A DNA stretch of 51,282 bases from Gemmatimonadota bacterium (GTDB taxonomy: Bacteria > Gemmatimonadota > Gemmatimonadetes > Longimicrobiales > Gaopeijiaceae): contig VXQO01000011.1 in assembly GCA_009838975.1 (NCBI GenBank), forward strand, positions 1 to 51,282. The letters are read 5' to 3'. A program made the position numbers and the translations under genes. Every line of letters begins with the position of its first letter. Position 1 is the first letter of the stretch. Positions 1 to 44,032 of this stretch are shown here, in pieces. A model generated the notes under the pieces. It was not told the DNA's origin. It saw nothing but the letters and a program-made list of their open reading frames with translations, and ran no database searches.

Positions 1-283
1 TCACGGCCGAAGCGGTGTTCGAGAACCCGACCTCGTCGCTGTCGAAGCCCGAGATTTCGACCGAGTAGCTGCCCATCCGAAGTCCGGTGAAGGCGTACTG
101 GCCGCTGTCGTCGGTGACCGCGGTAGCGCTGGACACCCCCGACAGCGCGACAGTCACGCCTCCGAGGCCCATGTTCTCTACCGTTACCGTCCCCGGCGTG
201 GAAAAGAAGTAGCGGTATTGTGACAAGCCGACCTTGCCAAATGCCTTCGTTGCCTCCGAAGATAGCGGCTGGCTTTCTGCGGC
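1..283 (-). pseudogene. 5'-truncated Ig-like / carboxypeptidase-regulatory domain gene, runs off left edge
   Basis: An open frame enters from the left edge and reads leftward. It encodes a beta-sandwich with the pattern GGVTVALSG, then TDDSGQYAFTGL, then GSYSVEISG, which is typical of SdrD-B or CarboxypepD-regulatory repeats in secreted adhesin-like proteins. Reading back, the frame is closed by TGA at 286-284. The only starts after that are TTG at 226 and ATG at 172, and the latter falls inside the domain. No signal peptide precedes the domain, as would be expected for a secreted protein of this kind. I infer that the gene lost its 5' part where the recombinase region now begins. It could also be a short intact gene with a TTG start, but this is less likely. 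Confidence 0.5.
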
Positions 284-315
284 TCAGACTGCTAGTTGAA
301 CTTGAGGACACCCGA

Positions 316-1326
316 ATGCCACATCCCACCATCCACCGCCGGCAGGGCTCCGGCGAACTCCGTTCACGCTATCTCGATGCGATCCTCAGCGCTGTGGAGG
401 ACAGCCGCCGGCCCGCCACGCGCCGCGTCTACAAGAGCGCGTGGAAACGCTTCCGAAGCTGGGCCGAATCCGAAGGGCTTCAGTCACTCCCCGCCGATCC
501 CATGACCGTTGCCGCCTACCTCATCAACCGCTCCGAACAGGGACTGTCGGCCTCGACCCTCTCCCTTGACCGCAAGGCGATCAGCCATTTCCATCGGGCG
601 GAGGGTCTGCCCACCCCGACCATGTCCGAAGGCGTCAAGCTCACCGTCGCCGGACTCCGCAACCAGGCCGCCGAGCAGGGGCGCGGCGAGCCGAGCCAGG
701 CCAGGGGACTTACCGCCGAGAACCTGAAGTCGATTGTGAGGACAGCGCGACTTCCCCGTTCCGGCAAGACCGGCCGCACCGAGTCCAGGGCATCCGCCCA
801 GCGGCGGGGGAATGTCGACATCGCCATCGCTGCGGTCATGCGGGATGCCTTGCTGCGTCGCAGCGAAGCCGCCGAACTTCGCTGGCGCGATGTCGAGTTC
901 TCACACGACGGATCGTCGCTCGTCACCATCCGCCGCTCGAAGACCAGCAACGTCTCGGCGGTGCAGTACGTGGGCGTCCAGGCCACCGCCGCACTGCGGC
1001 GCATCCGCCCGCTAAACGCGCGCTCCGAGGCGCGGGTGTTCGGTCTGCGGTCCGGTCGCTCGATCTCGAACCGCATCGCCGCCATGGCGCGCGCCGCCGG
1101 ACTCGGCGAGGGCTATCGGGGGCACTCGCCGCGGGTGGGGATGGCGCAGGACCTCACCGCCGCCGGCGTCGGTCTCGCTGCCCTCATGGTGGCGGGCCGC
1201 TGGCGTTCCGAGCGCATGCCGGCGCACTACGCGCGAGGCGAATCGGCGCGGCGCGGGGCAGTGGCGAAACTGTATCGCGAGGGCAGTTGGCGCGAGCAGG
1301 TGCCCGGAGGCCGCCAGGCGGGTTGA
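316..1326 (+). CDS. Tyrosine recombinase / phage-type integrase
   Basis: This is a site-specific recombinase of the XerC/D-integrase superfamily, about 336 aa. The N-terminal SAM-like core-binding domain covers roughly residues 10-120 (KSAWKRFRSWAESEG). The catalytic domain has Arg I in LLRRSE (R181), the beta-strand Lys in RRSKTS (K209), the HSPR box (H270, R273), Trp at the His/Trp position (W296 in GRWRS) and the nucleophile Tyr in AHYAR (Y305). All catalytic positions are present, so it is probably active. ATG 316 is preferred because GAGGA at 304-308 lies 7 nt upstream; an upstream ATG at 220 has no such site. No excisionase, relaxase or cargo gene is adjacent. Broken coding sequence lies on both sides, which fits a small or eroded mobile element. 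Confidence 0.9.
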   Translation: MPHPTIHRRQGSGELRSRYLDAILSAVEDSRRPATRRVYKSAWKRFRSWAESEGLQSLPADPMTVAAYLINRSEQGLSASTLSLDRKAISHFHRAEGLPTPTMSEGVKLTVAGLRNQAAEQGRGEPSQARGLTAENLKSIVRTARLPRSGKTGRTESRASAQRRGNVDIAIAAVMRDALLRRSEAAELRWRDVEFSHDGSSLVTIRRSKTSNVSAVQYVGVQATAALRRIRPLNARSEARVFGLRSGRSISNRIAAMARAAGLGEGYRGHSPRVGMAQDLTAAGVGLAALMVAGRWRSERMPAHYARGESARRGAVAKLYREGSWREQVPGGRQAG

Positions 1327-1538: not shown

Positions 1539-1579
1539 ATGTAAGCCAAAGATTACACAATGACAAGTGTGCTTGACAT
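1539..1579. promoter_or_regulatory. Double 20-bp dyad, site 1
   Basis: Dyad A (1539-1558) reads ATGTAA-N8-TTACAC and dyad B (1560-1579) reads ATGACA-N8-TGACAT, with one base between them. This is the same 21-bp period as five other sites in the window. No intact gene starts close to it: a protein remnant lies to the left and a tandem repeat to the right. It looks like an operator stranded by rearrangement beside the recombinase gene. Confidence 0.6.
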
Positions 1580-4269: not shown

Positions 4270-4310
4270 GCGTAAAATCGACATTACACAATGTCATGTC
4301 GGCATTACAT
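4270..4310. promoter_or_regulatory. Double 20-bp dyad, site 2
   Basis: Dyad A (4270-4289) reads GCGTAA-N8-TTACAC and dyad B (4291-4310) reads ATGTCA-N8-TTACAT, with one base between. It lies 69 bp upstream of the leftward FG-GAP protein gene and 45 bp beyond the end of the methyltransferase gene. It probably controls the FG-GAP gene. Confidence 0.7.
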
Positions 4311-16527: not shown

Positions 16528-16568
16528 ATGTAAACCGTATATTACGTTTTGTAAAGCAAACATTACGT
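16528..16568. promoter_or_regulatory. Double 20-bp dyad, site 3
   Basis: Dyad A (16528-16547) reads ATGTAA-N8-TTACGT and dyad B (16549-16568) reads TTGTAA-N8-TTACGT, with one base between. It lies 87 bp upstream of the TonB receptor start and 58 bp after the end of the preceding propeller gene. It probably controls the receptor. Confidence 0.75.
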
Positions 16569-16655
16569 TACTTCAATCCATGAGCCTTCTCGTGGAACCC
16601 GATTGGGACACCTCGGCTTGCGGAGGTCGGCCAAGTAGGCCAGGAGTTAGACCTG

Positions 16656-19016
16656 ATGACGCTTGTTGGCTCGCGGATATCCGCGCTGTCCGTACAACGG
16701 CTCGCCTCGCTTGCGCTGATTCCCATGCATAGAGTCTCTTCCACGGCGGTTCATCCGAGTGTCGACGGAATCCGTTGGCACCTGCTCGCGCTCGTCTTGT
16801 CTTTTGCGGTCGCTCCCGCGCTCGACATTCACCAGCTCTCCGCGCAGGAGGCGGAGCAAGTGCATGTGTTCGAGGGCAATGTCCGCGACGCGGGTACCGG
16901 TGAACCGCTGGCGGGTGCACACGTATCGGTGGTCGGAAGGGAGACCTGGGCGGTCACCCGCGGGGACGGGAGCTTCCACCTGACCGGGTTGGCCGCGGGT
17001 GCCTACATCCTTCGAGCCGACCGCCTGGGATACCGGGGCGCCACCGCGGTAGTAACCGTGGGGACCGAGCGCGCGCGCCGGGCGGTGGCGGAGTCGGCAG
17101 AGGTCGTGATCGAGTTGGCACCGTCTCCCATCGCGCTGGAGGACCTGGTGGTGACGGCCACGATCACCGAGCGAGCCGCGGCCGAGGCGCTCCGGCCGGT
17201 CAGCGTCATGACGGGCGACGTCCTGCAACGCCAGATGACGGCGACCGTCGCGGGGACACTGGCGTCGATGCCCGGGATGGCCGCTACCAGGATGGGTCCA
17301 TCGGTTGCGCAACCGGTGATCCGGGGACTGAGCGGGGATCGCGTACTGATGCTCGAGGACGGGATTGCGGTTGGGGATGCCTCCAACCAGGGCGCGGATC
17401 ACACCACCGCGCTCGATCCGTCGTCGGCGCGGCGGATCGAGGTTGTGCGGGGTCCGGGTGCGCTGCTCTACGGGGGCAACGCGCTGGGCGGAGTCATCAA
17501 CGTCATCCGCGACGAGATTCCGTCTGCCGCGCCGCACCACCTGACGGGCGCGGCGACTCTGCAGACACAGACCGCGACTGGCTCGCTGGCCGGCAGCGCG
17601 ACGGCCGTGTTCGCCCTCGCGGAGCGCGTGCCGCTGCGTGTGGAGGTGGCCGCGCGGACGGCGGGAGATCTGAAGACACCGATCGGAACACTTCTCAACA
17701 CCGACGGAGAACTGTGGAGCGGGGGTGCGGGGACGGCCTACGTGGGCGATTGGGGTCGCGTGGGGGCGTCCTTCCGCGGCTACCGCAACTACTACGGCAT
17801 CCCGGGCGGTTTCGTGGGTGGGCACGAGGAGGGGGTGCGGATCGAAATGGAGCGCGTGTCATCCAGGAGCCGGACCGTGATCGATGACCCGGTCGGGCCC
17901 TTCCACAACCTCCGCTTCGACGCGACTCACTCCTGGTACACTCACCGTGAGATCGAAGCATCGGGCATTCTGGGCACGCTTTTCGAGCAACAGAGCGCGA
18001 GCGCGGACGTCCTGGGTCGGCATCGGAGGTGGGGACCGTTTACGGCGGGCGCGATGGGCGGCCGTGCATCGTGGGAGGATTTCGGATACGGGGGATCCCT
18101 GCACACGCCGGACACGCGTCGGCTCAAGGCGGCCCTGTACCTGCTCGAAGAGGTCGATCTGGGCTCCTTCCAGATCGAGTCGGGGCTGCGCTACGACTGG
18201 ACTCTGATCGATCCGGGGGAAGAGCGGGTTTCGGACATCGGTGAGATTCATGAACGCGGATTCCCCTCCTTTTCGGCGTCGTTGGGTGTCCTGTACAAGT
18301 CCGCCTCGGGGCTGGTGCTCGGTGCCAGCCTTGTCCGCGCGTTTCGCACGCCCGACGTCACCGAACTCTATTCGGAGGGGCCGCATCTGGCGGCCTACGT
18401 GTTCGAAGTCGGAAACCCGTCTCTGGAGGGCGAGGTCGGGAGGGGGCTCGACGTCTTCCTCCGCTTCGAGTCCGACCGGCTGAGGGCCGAGGTGACCGGC
18501 TTCCACAACGACATCAGGAACCACATCTACGGGGAGGATACGGGCCGCCTGAGCCGCGTGCTCCTCCCCATCTATCAGTTCCGGGGCAGCGACGCCGTGT
18601 TCAGCGGCTTCGAAGCCGGTGTGGACGTGGACGCCGGGCGGGGGCTGGCGCTGGAGGGAGTGGCCTCAATGGTGAACGGCAGTCTCAAGGGGACCGATCA
18701 GCCCTTGCCTCTCGTTCCTCCGCTCAAGGGACACTTTGCCGTGAAGTACGAGAGGCCGTCGTGGTATGTCCGGGCGGAGGCCGAGATGGCCGACCAGCAG
18801 GACAGGGTTGGCGAATTCGAGACGGCGACTGCCGGGTACACCGTCTTCAACGCCGCGGCAGGCGTGCGGATTACCTTCGGCGGGCGTCTGAACGTGCTGA
18901 CCGTGAACCTCGTCAACGCCGCGAATGCCGAGTACCGCAACCACCTGTCGCGGGTTAAGGAGATCATGCCGGAGGCCGGGCGGAGTCTGAACGTCATGTA
19001 CCGGGTGGTGTTCTAG
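16656..19016 (+). CDS. TonB-dependent outer-membrane receptor
   Basis: A 786-aa protein. After an N-terminal region with a hydrophobic stretch (LLALVLSFAVAPAL) comes a carboxypeptidase-regulatory-like beta-sandwich (GNVRDAGTGEPLAGAHVSVVG), then the plug domain (VIRGLSGDRVLMLEDG, RIEVVRGPGALLYGGNALGG) and a 22-strand-type barrel ending in an aromatic VMYRVVF. It is of the siderophore/metal/vitamin receptor type and not SusC. Substrate unknown; there are several His residues in extracellular-type loops but no diagnostic motif. ATG 16656 has AGGAG 9 nt upstream. Double dyad site 3 precedes it. It converges with the orphan binding-protein gene, with a 10-bp gap. Confidence 0.9.
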   Translation: MTLVGSRISALSVQRLASLALIPMHRVSSTAVHPSVDGIRWHLLALVLSFAVAPALDIHQLSAQEAEQVHVFEGNVRDAGTGEPLAGAHVSVVGRETWAVTRGDGSFHLTGLAAGAYILRADRLGYRGATAVVTVGTERARRAVAESAEVVIELAPSPIALEDLVVTATITERAAAEALRPVSVMTGDVLQRQMTATVAGTLASMPGMAATRMGPSVAQPVIRGLSGDRVLMLEDGIAVGDASNQGADHTTALDPSSARRIEVVRGPGALLYGGNALGGVINVIRDEIPSAAPHHLTGAATLQTQTATGSLAGSATAVFALAERVPLRVEVAARTAGDLKTPIGTLLNTDGELWSGGAGTAYVGDWGRVGASFRGYRNYYGIPGGFVGGHEEGVRIEMERVSSRSRTVIDDPVGPFHNLRFDATHSWYTHREIEASGILGTLFEQQSASADVLGRHRRWGPFTAGAMGGRASWEDFGYGGSLHTPDTRRLKAALYLLEEVDLGSFQIESGLRYDWTLIDPGEERVSDIGEIHERGFPSFSASLGVLYKSASGLVLGASLVRAFRTPDVTELYSEGPHLAAYVFEVGNPSLEGEVGRGLDVFLRFESDRLRAEVTGFHNDIRNHIYGEDTGRLSRVLLPIYQFRGSDAVFSGFEAGVDVDAGRGLALEGVASMVNGSLKGTDQPLPLVPPLKGHFAVKYERPSWYVRAEAEMADQQDRVGEFETATAGYTVFNAAAGVRITFGGRLNVLTVNLVNAANAEYRNHLSRVKEIMPEAGRSLNVMYRVVF

Positions 19017-19026
19017 TGTGCGCTTG

Positions 19027-20118
19027 CTAGCGTGCCAGCCAGGCGCTGAAGCGCTCGTTCAATTCGTCCTGGTTGTCGACCCAGAATGCCCAGTCGTACC
19101 GAAGCGCGCGATCCATGTTGCCCGCGCTGGCCGGCATGTGGGGCGCCATGTCGACCCCCGCGACTACATGGGTCGTCACCAGCGGCATGCCTGATCTGCG
19201 CGCCGGGGAATAGGAGATGCGGCGGCCGATTCGCGCCAGGGACTCGGCGCTGGTGCTGAAGGCCACGTATTCCAGAGCCTCTTCCAGCCTCGGAGTACCC
19301 GCGACGATCCCGATCTGACCCACGTCCAGCAACTGTCCGTCCCACACGATCACGAACGGTTGGTTTTCCAGGATCTGGGCATTGAAGATGCGACCGTTGT
19401 ACGCCGTGCTCATGACCACTTCCCTGTCGGCCAGCATCTGCGGTGGCTGGGCGCCCGCCTCCCACCAGACCACCTCGTCCTTGATCGTTGCGAGCCTGGC
19501 AAAGGCCCGGTCCAGGCCCGCCGGCGTTTCCAGCGTGCTGTACACCTCGTCAAGCGGCACGCCATCGGCGATCAGTGCGAACTCCAGGTTCACCTGCGGT
19601 ACGCGCCGCATCCCGCGGCGGCCCGGGAACTTCTGCAGATCGAAGAAATCGGCCATGGTGGTGGGCTTTTCGTCCGGGAAGTTCTCGTCGTTGTACGCGT
19701 AGACGGTCGACCAGTACAGATTGCCCACACCGCACTCGGTGTGGCTTTCGGCCACGAAGTCGTCGGCCGCGGGAGTGCCGTCGGGTCCGGCCGGCAGATC
19801 GCCGATGTCTATCGGCGCGAGCAGTCCCTCGTCGCAACCGCGCACGGCGTCGGCCATCTCCAGGTCGACCACATCCCAATGGATGTTGCCGATGTCCACC
19901 TGCGCCCGTATCTGGGCCAGACCGCCGTTGTAGGCCTCCAGGCTGATGGGGATGCCGGTCGCCTCGGTGAATGGAATGTTGGCGCCTTCGTTGACGGCGC
20001 GGGCGTAGGATCCGCCCCAGGACACGACGGTGATCGACTGCCCGGCGACGGGGAGGAACGGGACGCTGGACAGGAGCGCACCAAAGCCCAGGGCGGTCAC
20101 CACCGGCAAGCGTCTCAC
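19027..20118 (-). CDS. ABC-type extracellular solute-binding protein (PotD/AfuA-like), orphan
   Basis: About 363 aa. The signal peptide RRLPVVTALGFGALLSSVPFLPVAGQ is followed by ITVVSWGGSY, typical of spermidine/putrescine or iron-type family 1 binding proteins, and later by DVVDLEMAD, GNLYWSTVYAYN, DFFDLQKFPGRR and VIVWDGQLLD. No ATPase or permease gene is nearby. Start: the frame is open to 20301 but that stretch translates the double dyad at 20200-20240. GTG 20118, with GGGAG 7 nt upstream, places the signal peptide at the N-terminus. Site 4 then lies 81 bp upstream. Confidence 0.85.
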   Translation of the reverse strand: MRRLPVVTALGFGALLSSVPFLPVAGQSITVVSWGGSYARAVNEGANIPFTEATGIPISLEAYNGGLAQIRAQVDIGNIHWDVVDLEMADAVRGCDEGLLAPIDIGDLPAGPDGTPAADDFVAESHTECGVGNLYWSTVYAYNDENFPDEKPTTMADFFDLQKFPGRRGMRRVPQVNLEFALIADGVPLDEVYSTLETPAGLDRAFARLATIKDEVVWWEAGAQPPQMLADREVVMSTAYNGRIFNAQILENQPFVIVWDGQLLDVGQIGIVAGTPRLEEALEYVAFSTSAESLARIGRRISYSPARRSGMPLVTTHVVAGVDMAPHMPASAGNMDRALRYDWAFWVDNQDELNERFSAWLAR

Positions 20119-20199
20119 GACTATGCTCCCATACCGTCTCTGTTCAGCATTGTGGCGATAAACCCCCCGCCGCGCGCGCGTCGAGCCGCAGATTCGTGA

Positions 20200-20240
20200 A
20201 TGTAAATCAAACATTACATTATGTAAATCAGACATTACAT
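20200..20240. promoter_or_regulatory. Double 20-bp dyad, site 4 (best copy)
   Basis: Dyad A (20200-20219) and dyad B (20221-20240) both read ATGTAA-N8-TTACAT and differ from each other at a single base in the spacer. One base separates them. The site lies between the end of the unknown exported protein gene and GTG 20118 of the binding-protein gene, 81 bp from the latter. This is the copy that best defines the motif. Confidence 0.8.
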
Positions 20241-36897: not shown

Positions 36898-38112
36898 ATG
36901 GAAAGCACTGTGATGAGCAAGAAGACCGTTGACGAATCCGTTCCGGCCACCACCCCGTCCGGCAGCGACGAATCAGTCGGCCGCCGCAAGTTCCTCGGCA
37001 CGGCCGCGACCGGCGTGGTCGGGGCTGGCCTGGTCACCGCATGTGGAGGCGACACCGGCGGCGAGTCGGGCGGGGGCCCGGCCGTGGTTACCCAGCCGAG
37101 GGTGACCTGGAGGCTGGCGTCGAGCTTCCCGCGCGGTCTCGACGCGATCTACGGGTCGGCCGAGATGCTCGGGGAGATCACCTCTTCGCTGACCGGGGGC
37201 CGCTTCCAGATCCGCGCGTATCCCGCCGGCGAACTCGTGCCGGGTCTCCAGGTCATGGACGCCGTGCAGCAGGGCACCGTCCAGGTCGGCCAGAGCACGA
37301 GCTACTACTACACGGGCAAGAACCAGGCGCTGGCCTTCGACGCGGGTGTGCCCTTCGGCATGACCGCGCGCCAGCAGGACGCGTGGCTGAACGAGGGCGG
37401 GGGACTCGACGTCGTGCGCGGGGTCTTCTCGGACTTCGGCATCATCTCGTTCCCGGGCGGCAACACGGGCGGTCAGATGGGCGGATGGTTCCGTCGCGAG
37501 GTGAACTCGGCCGAGGACCTGCGCGGGCTCAAGATGCGCATCCCCGGGCTGGGCGGCGACGTCATGGACCGCATGGGCGTGACGGTACAGGTGCTGGCAG
37601 GCGGCGACATCTACCCCGCGCTCGAACGCGGCGCGATCGACGCCACCGAGTGGGTGGGCCCGTACGACGACGAGAAGCTCGGCCTCCATCAGGCCGCGCC
37701 CTACTACTACTACCCGGGCTGGTGGGAGCCGTCGGCGTCGGTCTCCTACGAGGTCAACCAGCAGGCGTGGGACCAGCTCCCGAGCGACTACCAGGCGGTC
37801 TTCGAGGTCGCGGCCAAGGCCACGGCGCGCCGGATGCTCTACTACTACGACGCCAAGAACCCGGGCGCGCTGCAGCGCCTGATCGACGGCGGCACCCAGA
37901 TGCGGTCCTTCTCGGACGACATCATGGAACTCGCGCGCACCACCATCGGCGAGATCCTCGAGGACTACGCCGCAGCCGACCAGCAGTACCGGCAGGTCTA
38001 CGACCACTGGCGGAACTTCAAGGAGGCGTCCTACCGCTGGTTCGGCACGGCCGAGCTGAGGTTCGCGAGCTTCGCGTTCAACACGACACCGTCCGCGTCC
38101 AGCAACGTATAG
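36898..38112 (+). CDS. dctP: TRAP transporter substrate-binding protein, Tat-exported
   Basis: A 404-aa protein. A twin-arginine signal (GRRKFLGTAATGVVGAG) ends in a lipobox-like VTAC, so the product is probably a lipid-anchored periplasmic binder. The DctP fold is clear: WRLASSFPRG, VQVGQSTSYYYTGK, the ligand-carboxylate Arg in LRGLKMRIPGLGG, and ALERGAIDATEWVGPYDDEKLG. Poly-Tyr patches (APYYYYPGWWE) suit the mannitol/chloroaromatic or pyruvate-like subgroup. Its QM permease genes lie 0.9 kb away in the opposite orientation. The 121-bp gap to the serine hydrolase gene is a divergent promoter region. Confidence 0.9.
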   Translation: MESTVMSKKTVDESVPATTPSGSDESVGRRKFLGTAATGVVGAGLVTACGGDTGGESGGGPAVVTQPRVTWRLASSFPRGLDAIYGSAEMLGEITSSLTGGRFQIRAYPAGELVPGLQVMDAVQQGTVQVGQSTSYYYTGKNQALAFDAGVPFGMTARQQDAWLNEGGGLDVVRGVFSDFGIISFPGGNTGGQMGGWFRREVNSAEDLRGLKMRIPGLGGDVMDRMGVTVQVLAGGDIYPALERGAIDATEWVGPYDDEKLGLHQAAPYYYYPGWWEPSASVSYEVNQQAWDQLPSDYQAVFEVAAKATARRMLYYYDAKNPGALQRLIDGGTQMRSFSDDIMELARTTIGEILEDYAAADQQYRQVYDHWRNFKEASYRWFGTAELRFASFAFNTTPSASSNV

Positions 38113-38186
38113 GCATCGGCCGCACGGCGTAGCCAGCGGTTCAACGGCAGCATAGCCTGAACCGGGGGGGCGCTGTAGTCAATCCG

Positions 38187-38942
38187 CTGTGCCTCAGGCT
38201 CGGCACCGTCCCGACCGTGGTCACATCGCAAGATCCTGGATCAGCGCTCGCAGCGTACGCGGCACTCTACGTCGAGCAGGAGGTCCGCGCCGAGGGGCTG
38301 GCACGCGACGTCGGCAGCTTCTCCCGGTTTCTCGAGGCGGCCGCCTTCTCCCATGCGGCCACGCTCAACGTCAGCGAACTCGCCCGCGAGTGCGAGACCA
38401 GCCGAACCACCGTGGCCGGGTATCTGGAATTGCTCGAAGACCTGCTGCTGTCCTTCCGTCTTCCCGTCTTCACGCGACGCGCCAAGCGCCGACTTGTCGC
38501 ACACCCCCGGTTCTTCTACTTCGACTGCGGCGTCTACCGGAGTCTGCGCCCGGCGGGCCCCCTGGATCGACCCACCGAGATAGCCGGACCCGCACTCGAA
38601 GGACTGGTCGCGCAGCACCTGCGGGCCTGGCTGGCCTACTCCCGGGCCGACGCGAGACTATACTACTGGCGCACACGCGGGGGAGCCGAAGTCGACTTTG
38701 TGATCTACGGGGCCACGGGCTTCTGGGCCTTCGACGTCATGAACGCCGACCGGATCCGACCCGCGGATCTGCGGGGCCTCACATCCTTCGGCGACGAATA
38801 CCCCGAGGCACGCCGGGTTCTTCTGTACCGCGGCAGCCGGCGGATCGTGCGCAGAGACGTCCTGTGCGTGCCGGTCGAGGATTTCCTTCGCGCCCTCGAT
38901 CCGGAACGGGGACTGGAAGACGCAAGTGGGGCCGGCGGATGA
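38187..38942 (+). pseudogene. 5'-truncated ATPase with C-terminal DUF4143 domain
   Basis: The reading frame matches the C-terminal half of AAA_14/DUF4143 ATPases: ALYVEQEVRAEGL, then a winged-helix-like LARECETSRTTVAGYLELLEDL, RLVAHPRFFYFDCGVYRSL, and a nuclease-like GGAEVDFVIYG. The Walker A and B domain is missing. Family-like sequence (LRLGTVPTVVTSQDP) already runs before the first start codon (GTG 38217), so the 5' part was lost and did not evolve as a short gene. It sits between the split TRAP genes and next to double dyad site 5. A short expressed remnant is possible. Confidence 0.7.
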
Positions 38943-38959
38943 ACTCTGGATACCCAAGA

Positions 38960-39000
38960 CTGTAAAGTCAACATTACAACTTGTAATGTTGTGTTTACAA
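38960..39000. promoter_or_regulatory. Double 20-bp dyad, site 5, forming one large inverted repeat
   Basis: Dyad A (38960-38979) reads CTGTAA-N8-TTACAA and dyad B (38981-39000) reads TTGTAA-N8-TTACAA, one base apart. Here the two halves are also inverted copies: 17 of 19 bases pair between 38961-38979 and 38981-38999. It lies between the ends of two convergent genes, so it is not upstream of any visible start. No T-tract follows, so an ordinary intrinsic terminator is unlikely, although a hairpin could form. Confidence 0.7.
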
Positions 39001-39024
39001 TTGGTTGTCGCTTCGAACGTCGCC

Positions 39025-40347
39025 TCAGTTCACCAGCCCGGTCACCAGCGCCGGCCACTGGATGATCAGCATGAGGCCGATCAGCTGGATGATGATGAAC
39101 GGGATGACCGCACGGTAGAGTTCGGTAGTCTTCACCTCCGGGGGGGCCACACCCCTTAGATAGAAGAGCGCGAAGCCGAAGGGCGGCGTCAGGAACGAGG
39201 TCTGCAGGTTCATCCCGATCATCACGCCGAACCACACCAGATCGATGCCCAGGACGGCGGCCGCGGGCGCCAGGAGCGGGATGATGATGAAGGCGATCTC
39301 GAAGAAGTCGAGGAAGAACCCGAGGATGAAGATCGTCAGGTTGGCGACCAGGAGCAGGCCGATCCGCCCGCCGGGCAGCGTCGTCAGCAGGTCTTCGATC
39401 CAGATGTCGCCGTAGAGCCCCCGGAAGACGAGCGCGAACGCCGTCGAGCCGATCAGCAGGAACATCACCATCGTGGTGAGCTTGGTCGCGCCCAGGCACG
39501 ACTCGCGCAGTACGCTCATCGACATGCGGCCGCGCGCCGTCGCCAGCAGGATCGCGCCCACGGACCCGATCGCTCCGGCCTCGGTGGGAGTCGCGATCCC
39601 GGCGAAGATGGACCCCAGCACGATGAGAATCAGCAGCAGCGGCGGCAACATCACCACCGCCACGCGGCGCATCAGCACGCGGAAGTCGACGTCGGTCATC
39701 TCGGGTGGCAGCGCGGGCGCGGCCTCGGGCTTCACCACCGCCACGCCCGCCACGTACAGCGCGTACATCCCGGCCAGCATCAGTCCCGGCACCAGCCCGC
39801 CGATGAAGAGGTCGCCCACGGAGATGCCCAGCTGGTCGGCGAGCACCACCAGCACGATGCTCGGCGGGATGATCTGGCCCAGCGTCCCCGACGCGAGGAT
39901 CACCCCAGACGAGAGCCGCGCCGAGTACTTGTAGCGCAGCATGACCGGCAGGGAGATGCTCCCCATGGCCACCACCGAGGCGCCAACGACGCCAGTTGCG
40001 GCGGCCAGCATCGCGCCCACCACCACGACCCCTAGCGCAAGCCCACCGCGTAGCCTGCCGAAGAGTGTGCCGATGGTCGTCAGAAGATCCTCGGCCAGCT
40101 TTGCCTTCTCCAACACCAGCCCCATGAAGATGAAGAACGGCACGGCCAGGAGCACATAATTCGACATGACGCCGAAGATCCGCTCGGGCATGGCGAACAG
40201 CAGGTTCCAGTCGAAGAACCCGAACTGCACGCCGATGAAGGCGAAGGTCAGCGAGGCGCCGCCCAGGGCGAACGCGACCGGATAGCCGCAGAAGATGATC
40301 AGGAAGACCACCACGAACATCAGAGGGGCGAGGATGTTCGCTTCCAT
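39025..40347 (-). CDS. dctM: TRAP transporter large permease
   Basis: A 440-aa, highly hydrophobic protein with about eleven to twelve membrane spans. It shows the DctM signatures GVVGASVVAMGSISLPVML and SGVILASGTLGQIIPPSIVLVVLAD, and a second-half inverted-topology repeat with GSIFAGIATPTEAGAIGSVG and IGMNLQTSFLTPPFGFALFYL. It forms the sodium-driven transport channel with DctQ and receives substrate from DctP. The start lies directly after the dctQ stop (1 bp), so the two are coupled. Confidence 0.93.
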   Translation of the reverse strand: MEANILAPLMFVVVFLIIFCGYPVAFALGGASLTFAFIGVQFGFFDWNLLFAMPERIFGVMSNYVLLAVPFFIFMGLVLEKAKLAEDLLTTIGTLFGRLRGGLALGVVVVGAMLAAATGVVGASVVAMGSISLPVMLRYKYSARLSSGVILASGTLGQIIPPSIVLVVLADQLGISVGDLFIGGLVPGLMLAGMYALYVAGVAVVKPEAAPALPPEMTDVDFRVLMRRVAVVMLPPLLLILIVLGSIFAGIATPTEAGAIGSVGAILLATARGRMSMSVLRESCLGATKLTTMVMFLLIGSTAFALVFRGLYGDIWIEDLLTTLPGGRIGLLLVANLTIFILGFFLDFFEIAFIIIPLLAPAAAVLGIDLVWFGVMIGMNLQTSFLTPPFGFALFYLRGVAPPEVKTTELYRAVIPFIIIQLIGLMLIIQWPALVTGLVN

Positions 40348-40923
40348 CTAGAGTCCGATCCCTCCGGCGGGCGCTTCGGCGCTCTCTTCGCCCTCTTCCT
40401 CTGCGTCGTCCCCCCGCCGCAGGACCGCCAGATCCTTCAGGAACTCCGACACCCCCTGGGCCAGCAGCAGCACGAACGCCACGATGATCACGGCCTTCAG
40501 CGGGTAGCGCGGCAGTCCGCCCGGGTCCGGCGAGGCCTCGCGCACCGCCCACGAATTCCGGATCGACGGCCAGGAGACCCACAGCACGAAGATCGAGAAG
40601 GGGATGAGCATGACGATGGCGCCGACGACGTTGATCGCGGCCCTGGCTCTGGCGCGGAGTCGTCCGTAGAGCACGTCCACCCGCACGTGGGCGTTCTCCC
40701 TGAGCGCGAAGCCGGCCCCGAGCAGGAAGATCAGCGAGAAGAGGTACCACTGCAGCTCCAGGTAGAGGTTGGAGCTGAGGTTGATGCCGATGAACCGTCC
40801 CAGGTAGCGCGCGATGGCGTTGTATGCCCCGATCAGCACCATCAGCAGCGCCATCCACGCGATGAAGCGCCCCAGGCCGCCGGTCAGGCGGTCGACGAAG
40901 CGGGAGTACGGGTTGTCACGCAA
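40348..40923 (-). CDS. dctQ: TRAP transporter small permease
   Basis: About 191 aa with four membrane spans (WMALLMVLIGAYNAIARYL, WYLFSLIFLLGAGFAL, GAIVMLIPFSIFVLWVSWP, VIIVAFVLLLAQGVSEFL) and the DctQ pattern ENAHVRVDVLYGRL. An acidic C-terminal tail follows. The start is uncertain: the frame has no ATG before residue 39. TTG 40923 fits the family N-terminus but has no strong ribosome site. It is co-transcribed with dctM. Confidence 0.88.
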   Translation of the reverse strand: MRDNPYSRFVDRLTGGLGRFIAWMALLMVLIGAYNAIARYLGRFIGINLSSNLYLELQWYLFSLIFLLGAGFALRENAHVRVDVLYGRLRARARAAINVVGAIVMLIPFSIFVLWVSWPSIRNSWAVREASPDPGGLPRYPLKAVIIVAFVLLLAQGVSEFLKDLAVLRRGDDAEEEGEESAEAPAGGIGL

Positions 40924-43991: not shown

Positions 43992-44032
43992 ATGTAAGGC
44001 CGACATGACATTTGGTCAATCTGACCTTACAG
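43992..44032. promoter_or_regulatory. Double 20-bp dyad, site 6
   Basis: Dyad A (43992-44011) reads ATGTAA-N8-TGACAT and dyad B (44013-44032) reads TGGTCA-N8-TTACAG, with one base between. Dyad B is the weakest half of the set. It lies 104 bp upstream of the preferred start of the endonuclease/phosphatase gene and inside the longest possible frame of that gene, which argues against a start at 43921. Confidence 0.6.

Follow-up and report, generated by a model that had tools for sequence, protein, structure and literature searches.

Why should a 39-bp inverted repeat with the look of a repressor's operator sit at a place where two genes end? The element in question, site 5, lies at positions 38961-38999 of the window, the whole stretch of 51,282 nucleotides from a Gemmatimonadota bacterium (contig VXQO01000011.1) that we analysed. 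It consists of two perfect TGTAA-N8-TTACA dyads spaced 21 bp apart, centre to centre. A preliminary description set site 5 apart from the other paired dyads of the window and offered two accounts of it: a relic operator left behind by rearrangement, or a miniature mobile or hairpin element from which the other paired operators could have arisen.

Several kinds of bacterial sequence invite comparison. XRE proteins bind DNA as dimers. ArgR boxes are paired boxes of 18 bp that stand 2-3 bp apart. REP/BIME elements, which go with RAYT transposases, are lineage-specific and intergenic, often found at the 3' ends of genes and between convergent genes. A 2017 study catalogued intergenic motif pairs between convergent genes of other bacteria, which its available text leaves unexplained (PMC5217627); here a candidate protein accompanies the motif. 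Its phyletic match with the sites, the site at its own gene, the geometry of the pair and the trace of an operator in another genus (G023) open two matters to experiment: whether transcription is halted or insulated by a repressor-like protein bound at gene ends, and by what route the site of that protein has spread.

Here we report that site 5 belongs, as an intact copy, to a family of putative paired binding sites that is genus-specific and numerous. Our reading as a whole adds to this an autoregulated XRE/HTH_3-PBP_like protein as the probable binder and a local action at site 5 other than at a promoter; on the sequence comparisons described below, we give it a probability of roughly 0.6.

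Results

Site 5 lies where two genes end

The preliminary description had the local layout right in most respects (Table 1). The arms 38961-38979 and 38981-38999, separated by 1 nt, pair at 17 of 19 positions. The flanking genes do converge, with site 5 lying between the TGA of the upstream frame and the stop codon of dctM. That upstream frame is indeed the remains of an ATPase gene: the congener G015 carries a 399-aa AAA_14 and DUF4143 gene at the same place, and the gene here is short by about 465 bp, with the deletion point at window position 38190/38191. Both neighbours end at site 5, which is thus not at the promoter of an adjacent gene. A conserved small gene starting about 80 bp away, which would have made site 5 an ordinary operator, was not seen among the frames of at least 20 aa in this genome; these cross the element or run antisense to dctM or to the ATPase remnant. 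Short + strand frames of 24, 37 and 77 aa begin near site 5 and run antisense into dctM. A sigma-70-like promoter match covers dyad B at 38973-39001 (1 found, 0.2 expected), and an antisense transcript from it is possible.

Table 1. Paired sites of the window, parts of site 5 and neighbouring genes
Feature	Position	Strand	Remarks
Window copy 1	1540-1578		3 mismatches; convergent neighbours
Window copy 2	4271-4309		2 mismatches; FG-GAP protein gene lies 70 bp downstream; retained in G013 and G015
Window copy 3	16529-16567		2 mismatches; downstream of one gene, ahead of TonB receptor gene
Window copy 4	20201-20239		perfect; upstream of solute-binding protein gene
Site 5, dyad A	38961-38978		TGTAA-N8-TTACA, half-sites perfect
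Site 5, linker	38979-38981		3 bp; sets the 21-bp centre-to-centre register
Site 5, dyad B	38982-38999		TGTAA-N8-TTACA, half-sites perfect
Window copy 6	43993-44031		3 mismatches; divergent neighbours
dctP, TRAP solute-binding protein	36898-38112	+	PF03480, E 4.1e-56; next intact gene leftward
DUF4143/AAA_14 ATPase gene, 3' half	38217-38942	+	N-terminal half deleted; full length in G015
dctM, TRAP transporter large permease	39025-40347	-	PF06808, E 1.9e-93; ends 25 bp from site 5
dctQ	40351-40923		completes TRAP transporter set with dctP and dctM

A high-copy family of paired sites

The window contains six paired dyads with at most 3 mismatches in the 20 fixed bases; 100 dinucleotide shuffles yielded none. 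The genome as a whole (4.5 Mb) holds 65 single perfect dyads and 100 copies of the paired pattern at 3 mismatches or fewer, and the reversed control gave 0 in both searches. At 2 mismatches or fewer, 22 of the 23 genus genomes, among them the present one, have 15-231 copies of the pair each; the remaining genome, G008, has 0. Of 17 genomes from elsewhere in the order, 0 have it. These pattern searches fixed the linker at 3 bp. When linkers of 2, 3 or 4 bp were permitted, all 22 operators of the XRE gene described below had 3; one copy in this genome (C52) has a 2-bp linker.

When a single genome of each species was scanned, at least 116 stretches matched. Sorted by title, the 80 matches listed comprise 57 from Gemmatimonadetes, Gemmatimonadota or Longimicrobiales and 23 from scattered other groups. 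The motif is unrecorded in the literature that we searched for TGTAATGT with ACATTACA palindromes and for XRE proteins with PF12727 or molybdate, a coverage outside which most subscription journals fall.

Eleven stretches of viral contigs match the paired motif. Four Chryseobacterium genomes (L167, L210, L223, L237) contain it exactly, which may be due to chance in AT-rich DNA or to another regulator. A contig of COS4_bin_2 carries three consecutive dyads in the same 21-bp register (L169, 5408-5467). In G021, three identical paired sites stand at 249-bp spacing (G021:C1:207279-207815), apparently as a tandem repeat that bears the site; the sites listed for this genome (50 of 75) span 11 kb to 4.15 Mb of its 4.47 Mb, with no obvious cluster by eye.

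The sites are enriched between convergent genes

Genes were called by a codon-usage script trained on the Pfam-confirmed genes of the window, and starts and orientations rest on it. The 57 copies placed in this genome comprise 14 with convergent neighbours, 9 with divergent and 30 with co-directional ones, as well as 4 at contig edges. Measured against site-free gaps of at least 20 bp in the same loci, the odds of convergence are 2.8 in this genome, 4.4 in G013, 3.7 in G015 and 4.2 in the species-scan loci; these sets overlap, since most sites of G013 and G015 are shared with this genome and a few loci recur in the scan set. Pooling the two largely separate sets, those of this genome and of the species scan, gives odds of 3.6 (p 1.2e-5). 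Divergent gaps, with odds of 0.3-1.1 and no p below 0.14, are neither enriched nor clearly depleted. Among neighbours of at least 60 aa within 500 bp, the stop codon faces the site 60 times and the start codon 46 times, a difference that is not significant (p 0.21). The family has no promoter preference and is enriched between convergent genes. Since convergent placement is usual and a preference for starts is absent, it is unlike a set of promoter operators.

The claim that site 5 is unlike the other copies did not survive this survey. Of the 53 copies with a called gene on either side, 14 are convergent, the window copy at 1540-1578 among them. Nor does its symmetry single it out. Pairs mirror themselves because each dyad is a palindrome, and among the 57 pairs examined in this genome the mirrored positions number between 9 and 16 out of 18. 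With 16, site 5 stands at the top of a continuous range and is equalled by one other copy. Its counterpart in G015 mirrors at only 13 of 18 positions, and the mirror symmetry of site 5 is therefore not conserved.

Some copies overlap the ends of genes or lie close behind them. Several supply the TAA of TGTAA as the stop codon of the adjoining gene; at one locus, L077, both convergent genes terminate within the element; and the pair lies exactly 12 bp past the stop codon of a SusD-like gene in 5 genomes. We found no functional theme among the neighbours: 45 of 46 start-facing and 57 of 60 stop-facing candidates fell into 94 and 102 Pfam families, the commonest of which, among the 25 families shown per set, had 2 and 3 members, respectively.

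Half-sites are held while spacers drift

How well are the copies kept between species? Across 41 pairs of orthologous sites, with G013 or G015 as the partner, changes fall on 21 of 820 half-site positions and on 106 of 656 spacer positions; the convergent pairs alone differ at 3 of 200 half-site and 21 of 160 spacer positions. These counts favour half-site conservation because most of the G013 and G015 loci were fetched for having sites. The window copies alone make a less biased comparison (half-sites changed at 5 of 140 positions, spacers at 18 of 112; p 7e-4), although the presence of sites also guided the choice of G015:C21, and the comparison omits the copies that lack a partner, namely copy 1 in G013 and G015 and copies 3, 4 and 5 in G013. 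The L077 gap alone was read without selecting for sites. Site 5 itself shows, in G015, changes at 0 of 23 half-site and linker positions and at 4 of 16 spacer positions (p 0.02). Half-sites that are held while spacers drift make the copies look like protein-binding sites under selection.

An XRE-type gene accompanies the sites

A candidate for the binding protein was picked by eye among 13 clusters of site-neighbour proteins that span at least two species groups. In the chosen cluster a perfect pair precedes the start codon by 84 and 98 bp, in two species. The protein, encoded in this genome at G000:C1:6791-7900, is of the XRE type and joins an HTH_3/HTH_31 domain to a PBP_like domain; HipB(Lp) is one of the PDB entries that its HTH matches. 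The gene is present in 22 of the 23 genomes of the genus and absent from G008, the sole genome without sites. In each of the 22 a paired site (2-3 mismatches, linker 3) stands 32-110 bp before the ATG, and a TGA reported within the matches of G004 and G007 sits just ahead of it. Inverted 5-bp half-sites, an 8-bp spacer and the same site before the XRE gene are what we found of an XRE-type 5-N8-5 operator. The gene of G010, which has more sites (231) than any other genome of the genus, keeps the HTH intact and is shorter by 97 residues in its sensor half and by 15 at its end (L375, G010:C53). A structure model of the protein, built on a two-sequence alignment, has a mean pLDDT of 34.8, too low to be of use.

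From this association the sites are likely to be bound by the XRE/HTH_3-PBP_like protein. The absence of the gene from G008, an assembly about 94% complete, is a single event that an assembly gap or chance could explain; conserved sites stand at other genes as well, and that one of them stands at a DNA-binding gene could be chance.

Homologues outside the genus bear on the age of the operator. Those in G023, G024 and G027 (32-35%) carry 7, 9 or 10 mismatches in their best upstream pairs, and a few further genomes give short, weak matches. In G023, from another genus of the same taxonomic family, the paired site is absent at 2 mismatches, and the upstream stretch matches a genus operator at 29 of 39 positions, where 200 local shuffles reach at most 22; the corresponding stretches of G024 and G027 do not stand out. 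Given this trace in G023, the operator at the XRE gene looks older than the spread of the sites.

Two other proteins were tried and rejected. A tyrosine recombinase of the window (220-1326), considered as a mover of the sites, has no match in G010 or G018, which hold 231 and 48 sites, and is present in G008, which holds 0. This recombinase is multicopy in some congeners, and the gene content adjoining it differs between this genome and G013. ArgR, considered as the binder, would explain 18-bp palindromes paired with a 3-bp linker; its boxes differ in sequence, and G010, with 231 pairs, has no Arg_repressor match.

Copies come and go between genomes

If site 5 is a mobile element, relatives should differ in its presence and the insertion should be flanked by duplications of its target. 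The first part was observed at the locus and the second was not. Site 5 is present in 2 of 20 genomes, this one and G015, and its absence from 18 of 20 congeners makes it dispensable at that locus. The gap between the stop codon of dctM and that of the facing gene, with gene ends taken from our own caller, measures 82 bp in this genome and 83 bp in G015. In the five other congeners in which an ATPase gene faces dctM, it measures 28 bp (G005), 2 bp (G004), 34 bp (G022) and -41 bp (G011 and G007). Where dctP or another gene faces dctM, the site-free gaps are 0-13 bp in G001, G019 and G016 and 72-111 bp in G010, G009, G017 and G013; those of G009, G017 and G013 contain a different dyad. At L077, with both flanks read in 13 genomes, 7 have the site (4 mismatches or fewer) in gaps of 29-92 bp, and the six site-free gaps measure 9, 9, 12, 25, 60 and 101 bp. 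Since the site-bearing gaps at both loci are longer than most of the site-free ones, copies seem to be inserted stretches, and new copies seem to arise by insertion. A target duplication was sought at site 5 and its G015 copy and not found: the longest word common to both 20-bp flanks of site 5 is 4 nt, 15-16 bp away, and 744 of 1000 random places in the window give a shared flank word of at least 4 nt.

A dispersed repeat of G010 has the pair as its core. A common consensus extends into the flanks of the 55 copies that have enough flanking sequence, and its left edge, near -80, is sharp. The unit on the left is about 67 bp long and contains a CCGTGG/CCACGG stem. It can stand without dyads: of its 25 hits in 184 kb (loci L119-L131), 11 lie within 140 bp of a paired dyad. 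Several of these repeats begin 0-1 bp from a called gene end (for example L127 3656, L130 17321 and L119 8761). Among the copies of this genome no shared flanks were found; their spacers, compared in orientation, form 39 pairs at a distance of 5 or less, against about 12 in column shuffles.

Other dyads and arrangements were seen at the same loci. In the L077 gap of G006 (L389) stands TGTCAACTGAAGTTTCCA together with an almost exact reverse complement of itself, a pair with strong mirroring; this genome has an ordinary pair there. Downstream of dctP, several congeners carry a second dyad, GTCGTC-N-GACGAC around TTTTGCCTGTC (L022 1441, L025 1438, L026 1467, L040 318 and others); behind dctP of this genome, which lacks the 465 bp, no such dyad was seen.

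Discussion

What could a bound protein do at the end of a gene? In the mechanism that we propose, two dimers of the XRE protein would lie side by side, one on each dyad; given that the 21-bp register amounts to two helical turns, both dimers would face the same side of the DNA. Bound at the site before its own gene, the protein would autoregulate. Bound at site 5, it would most likely act locally, by blocking RNA polymerase leaving dctM or the ATPase remnant, or else serve an architectural purpose. Computation gives the family, where its copies lie, the conserved half-sites and their link to the XRE gene; we infer the binding, its two-dimer mode and its effect. As for function, a roadblock or insulator and an architectural or titrating role without local effect strike us as equally credible, each at well under even odds; conventional regulation of something that we do not see is a good deal less credible than either. 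Roadblocks of this kind have a precedent in LacI, which according to the available text ends transcription in E. coli largely by way of Mfd (PMC4132739).

A broader scenario can be put forward tentatively, as one that we doubt more than we believe. The operator of a single XRE-PBP_like gene may have been copied, in the manner of insertions, to 15-230 intergenic places in one bacterial genus, with a preference for gaps between convergent genes, to yield a sealing of gene ends that a ligand can tune. If so, a local repressor would have turned into a chromosome-wide system that acts as a protein roadblock or insulator rather than by promoter switching. The nearest classification of the sites, by analogy, would be XRE-type operators that have been multiplied and placed at gene ends.

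Must the sites be operators at all? They might be a miniature mobile or hairpin repeat, MITE- or REP-like, that moves about as a short insertion. Most copies would then do nothing for the host, and neither would site 5, and the half-sites would be held because whatever moves the pair recognises them. The preliminary description fares best here on the matter of origin: the gains and losses at L077 and dctM resemble indels, the flanks of the G010 copies have a common consensus that ends sharply on the left, and the spacers of this genome are closer to one another than column shuffles allow. Other results speak against such a repeat. Site-free dctM gaps in G010, G009, G017 and G013 are long as well, flanks are unshared in this genome, no duplication flanks site 5, and it is the half-sites that are kept and the spacers that drift. 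Mirror pairing of the spacers has a z of 1.9 in this genome, a value reached by 60 of 2000 shuffles, and of -1.6 in the other set. The Y1 transposase (PF01797) occurs in 0 of the 23 genus genomes and in 5 of 14 control genomes. For this last reason, and because no hairpin is kept by paired changes, membership among the REP/RAYT elements was rejected; half-sites are conserved here, not a stem. We consider the mobile repeat unlikely as an explanation of the whole, though deserving of attention. A hairpin might instead work by itself, as a bidirectional terminator whose transcript folds on either strand and stops transcription without a protein. The RNA of site 5, which lies just past two stop codons, does fold on both strands (-16.3 and -16.7 kcal/mol; z -3.3 and -4.3), as do three of four other copies tried (z -2.4 to -3.6), so that five of six stretches reach z -2.4 or below. 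Yet palindromic binding sites fold for trivial reasons, and L081, a conserved and convergent copy, folds no better than shuffles (z -1.2). A GC-rich stem with a T run, as in an intrinsic terminator, was not found in 38050-39150, and the pairing of the spacers is down to 13 of 18 in G015. With the spacer mirroring, these results leave RNA structure unsupported as the conserved entity, and we would give the terminator very little credence.

The other account in the preliminary description, that site 5 is a former promoter site stranded between convergent genes by rearrangement, gains something from the deletion in the adjoining ATPase gene of this genome, which is real, and from the absence of the site in 18 of 20 congeners at the locus. 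It does not sit well with G015, where the site stands beside a full-length ATPase gene with its half-sites and linker unchanged and its spacers altered, or with the family at large, in which convergent copies are common and conserved. A relic operator is improbable on these grounds. Finally, site 5 could simply be an ordinary operator, with a small or antisense transcript starting beside it, as the promoter-like match over dyad B and the nearby frames of 24, 37 and 77 aa would allow. Those frames run antisense into dctM, however, the gaps of this genome and G015 differ in length by 1 bp, and the family as a whole lacks a preference for start codons; of the explanations considered, we think this the hardest to credit.

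Our preferred reading, paired binding sites for an XRE protein, has partial counterparts in known systems. In function the nearest analogy would be the HipB-type operator. HipB, an XRE protein, binds TATCCN8GGATA cooperatively and represses hipBA (PMC3376134). As far as the available text of that paper goes, the E. coli hipBA operators resemble our sites in having an XRE/HTH_3 protein, a 5-N8-5 layout, several sites bound cooperatively, and autoregulation, which is a prediction here. The half-site sequence differs, the O1-O2 linker is 10 bp by our count from an oligonucleotide in the paper against 3 bp here, and four sites at one promoter contrast with about 100 across this genome. The partner of HipB is the HipA kinase, in place of which our protein has a PBP_like domain.

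In distribution the nearest likeness is to the convergent motif pairs of PMC5217627. According to its available text, GCTTAT(N)5AAGCG has 114 copies in A. ebreus, with 44 of 107 intergenic copies convergent, and CCTAC(N)19TAGGT has 57 in D. alkenivorans, with 18 of 55 intergenic copies convergent; both pairs were judged not to serve transcription initiation. They share with our family short paired words, nearly all intergenic, and many convergent copies. They differ in their words and organisms, in that the available text names no protein for either, and in the doubled dyad at a fixed 21-bp register, which is a feature of the sites described here.

One arrangement in the window bears on recombination between copies. 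The TonB receptor and solute-binding protein genes at 16529-20239 are bracketed by sites 3 and 4, in G015 as well as here. Recombination at the sites was rejected as a general explanation: many of the 41 orthologous pairs have both flanks in place, and other indels of the window are free of sites. We keep it as a lead, because sites 3 and 4 bracket a module that is missing in G013. At G013:C13:56451-56489 a single paired site has a left flank that matches that of site 3 and a right flank, 75% identical, that matches that of site 4.
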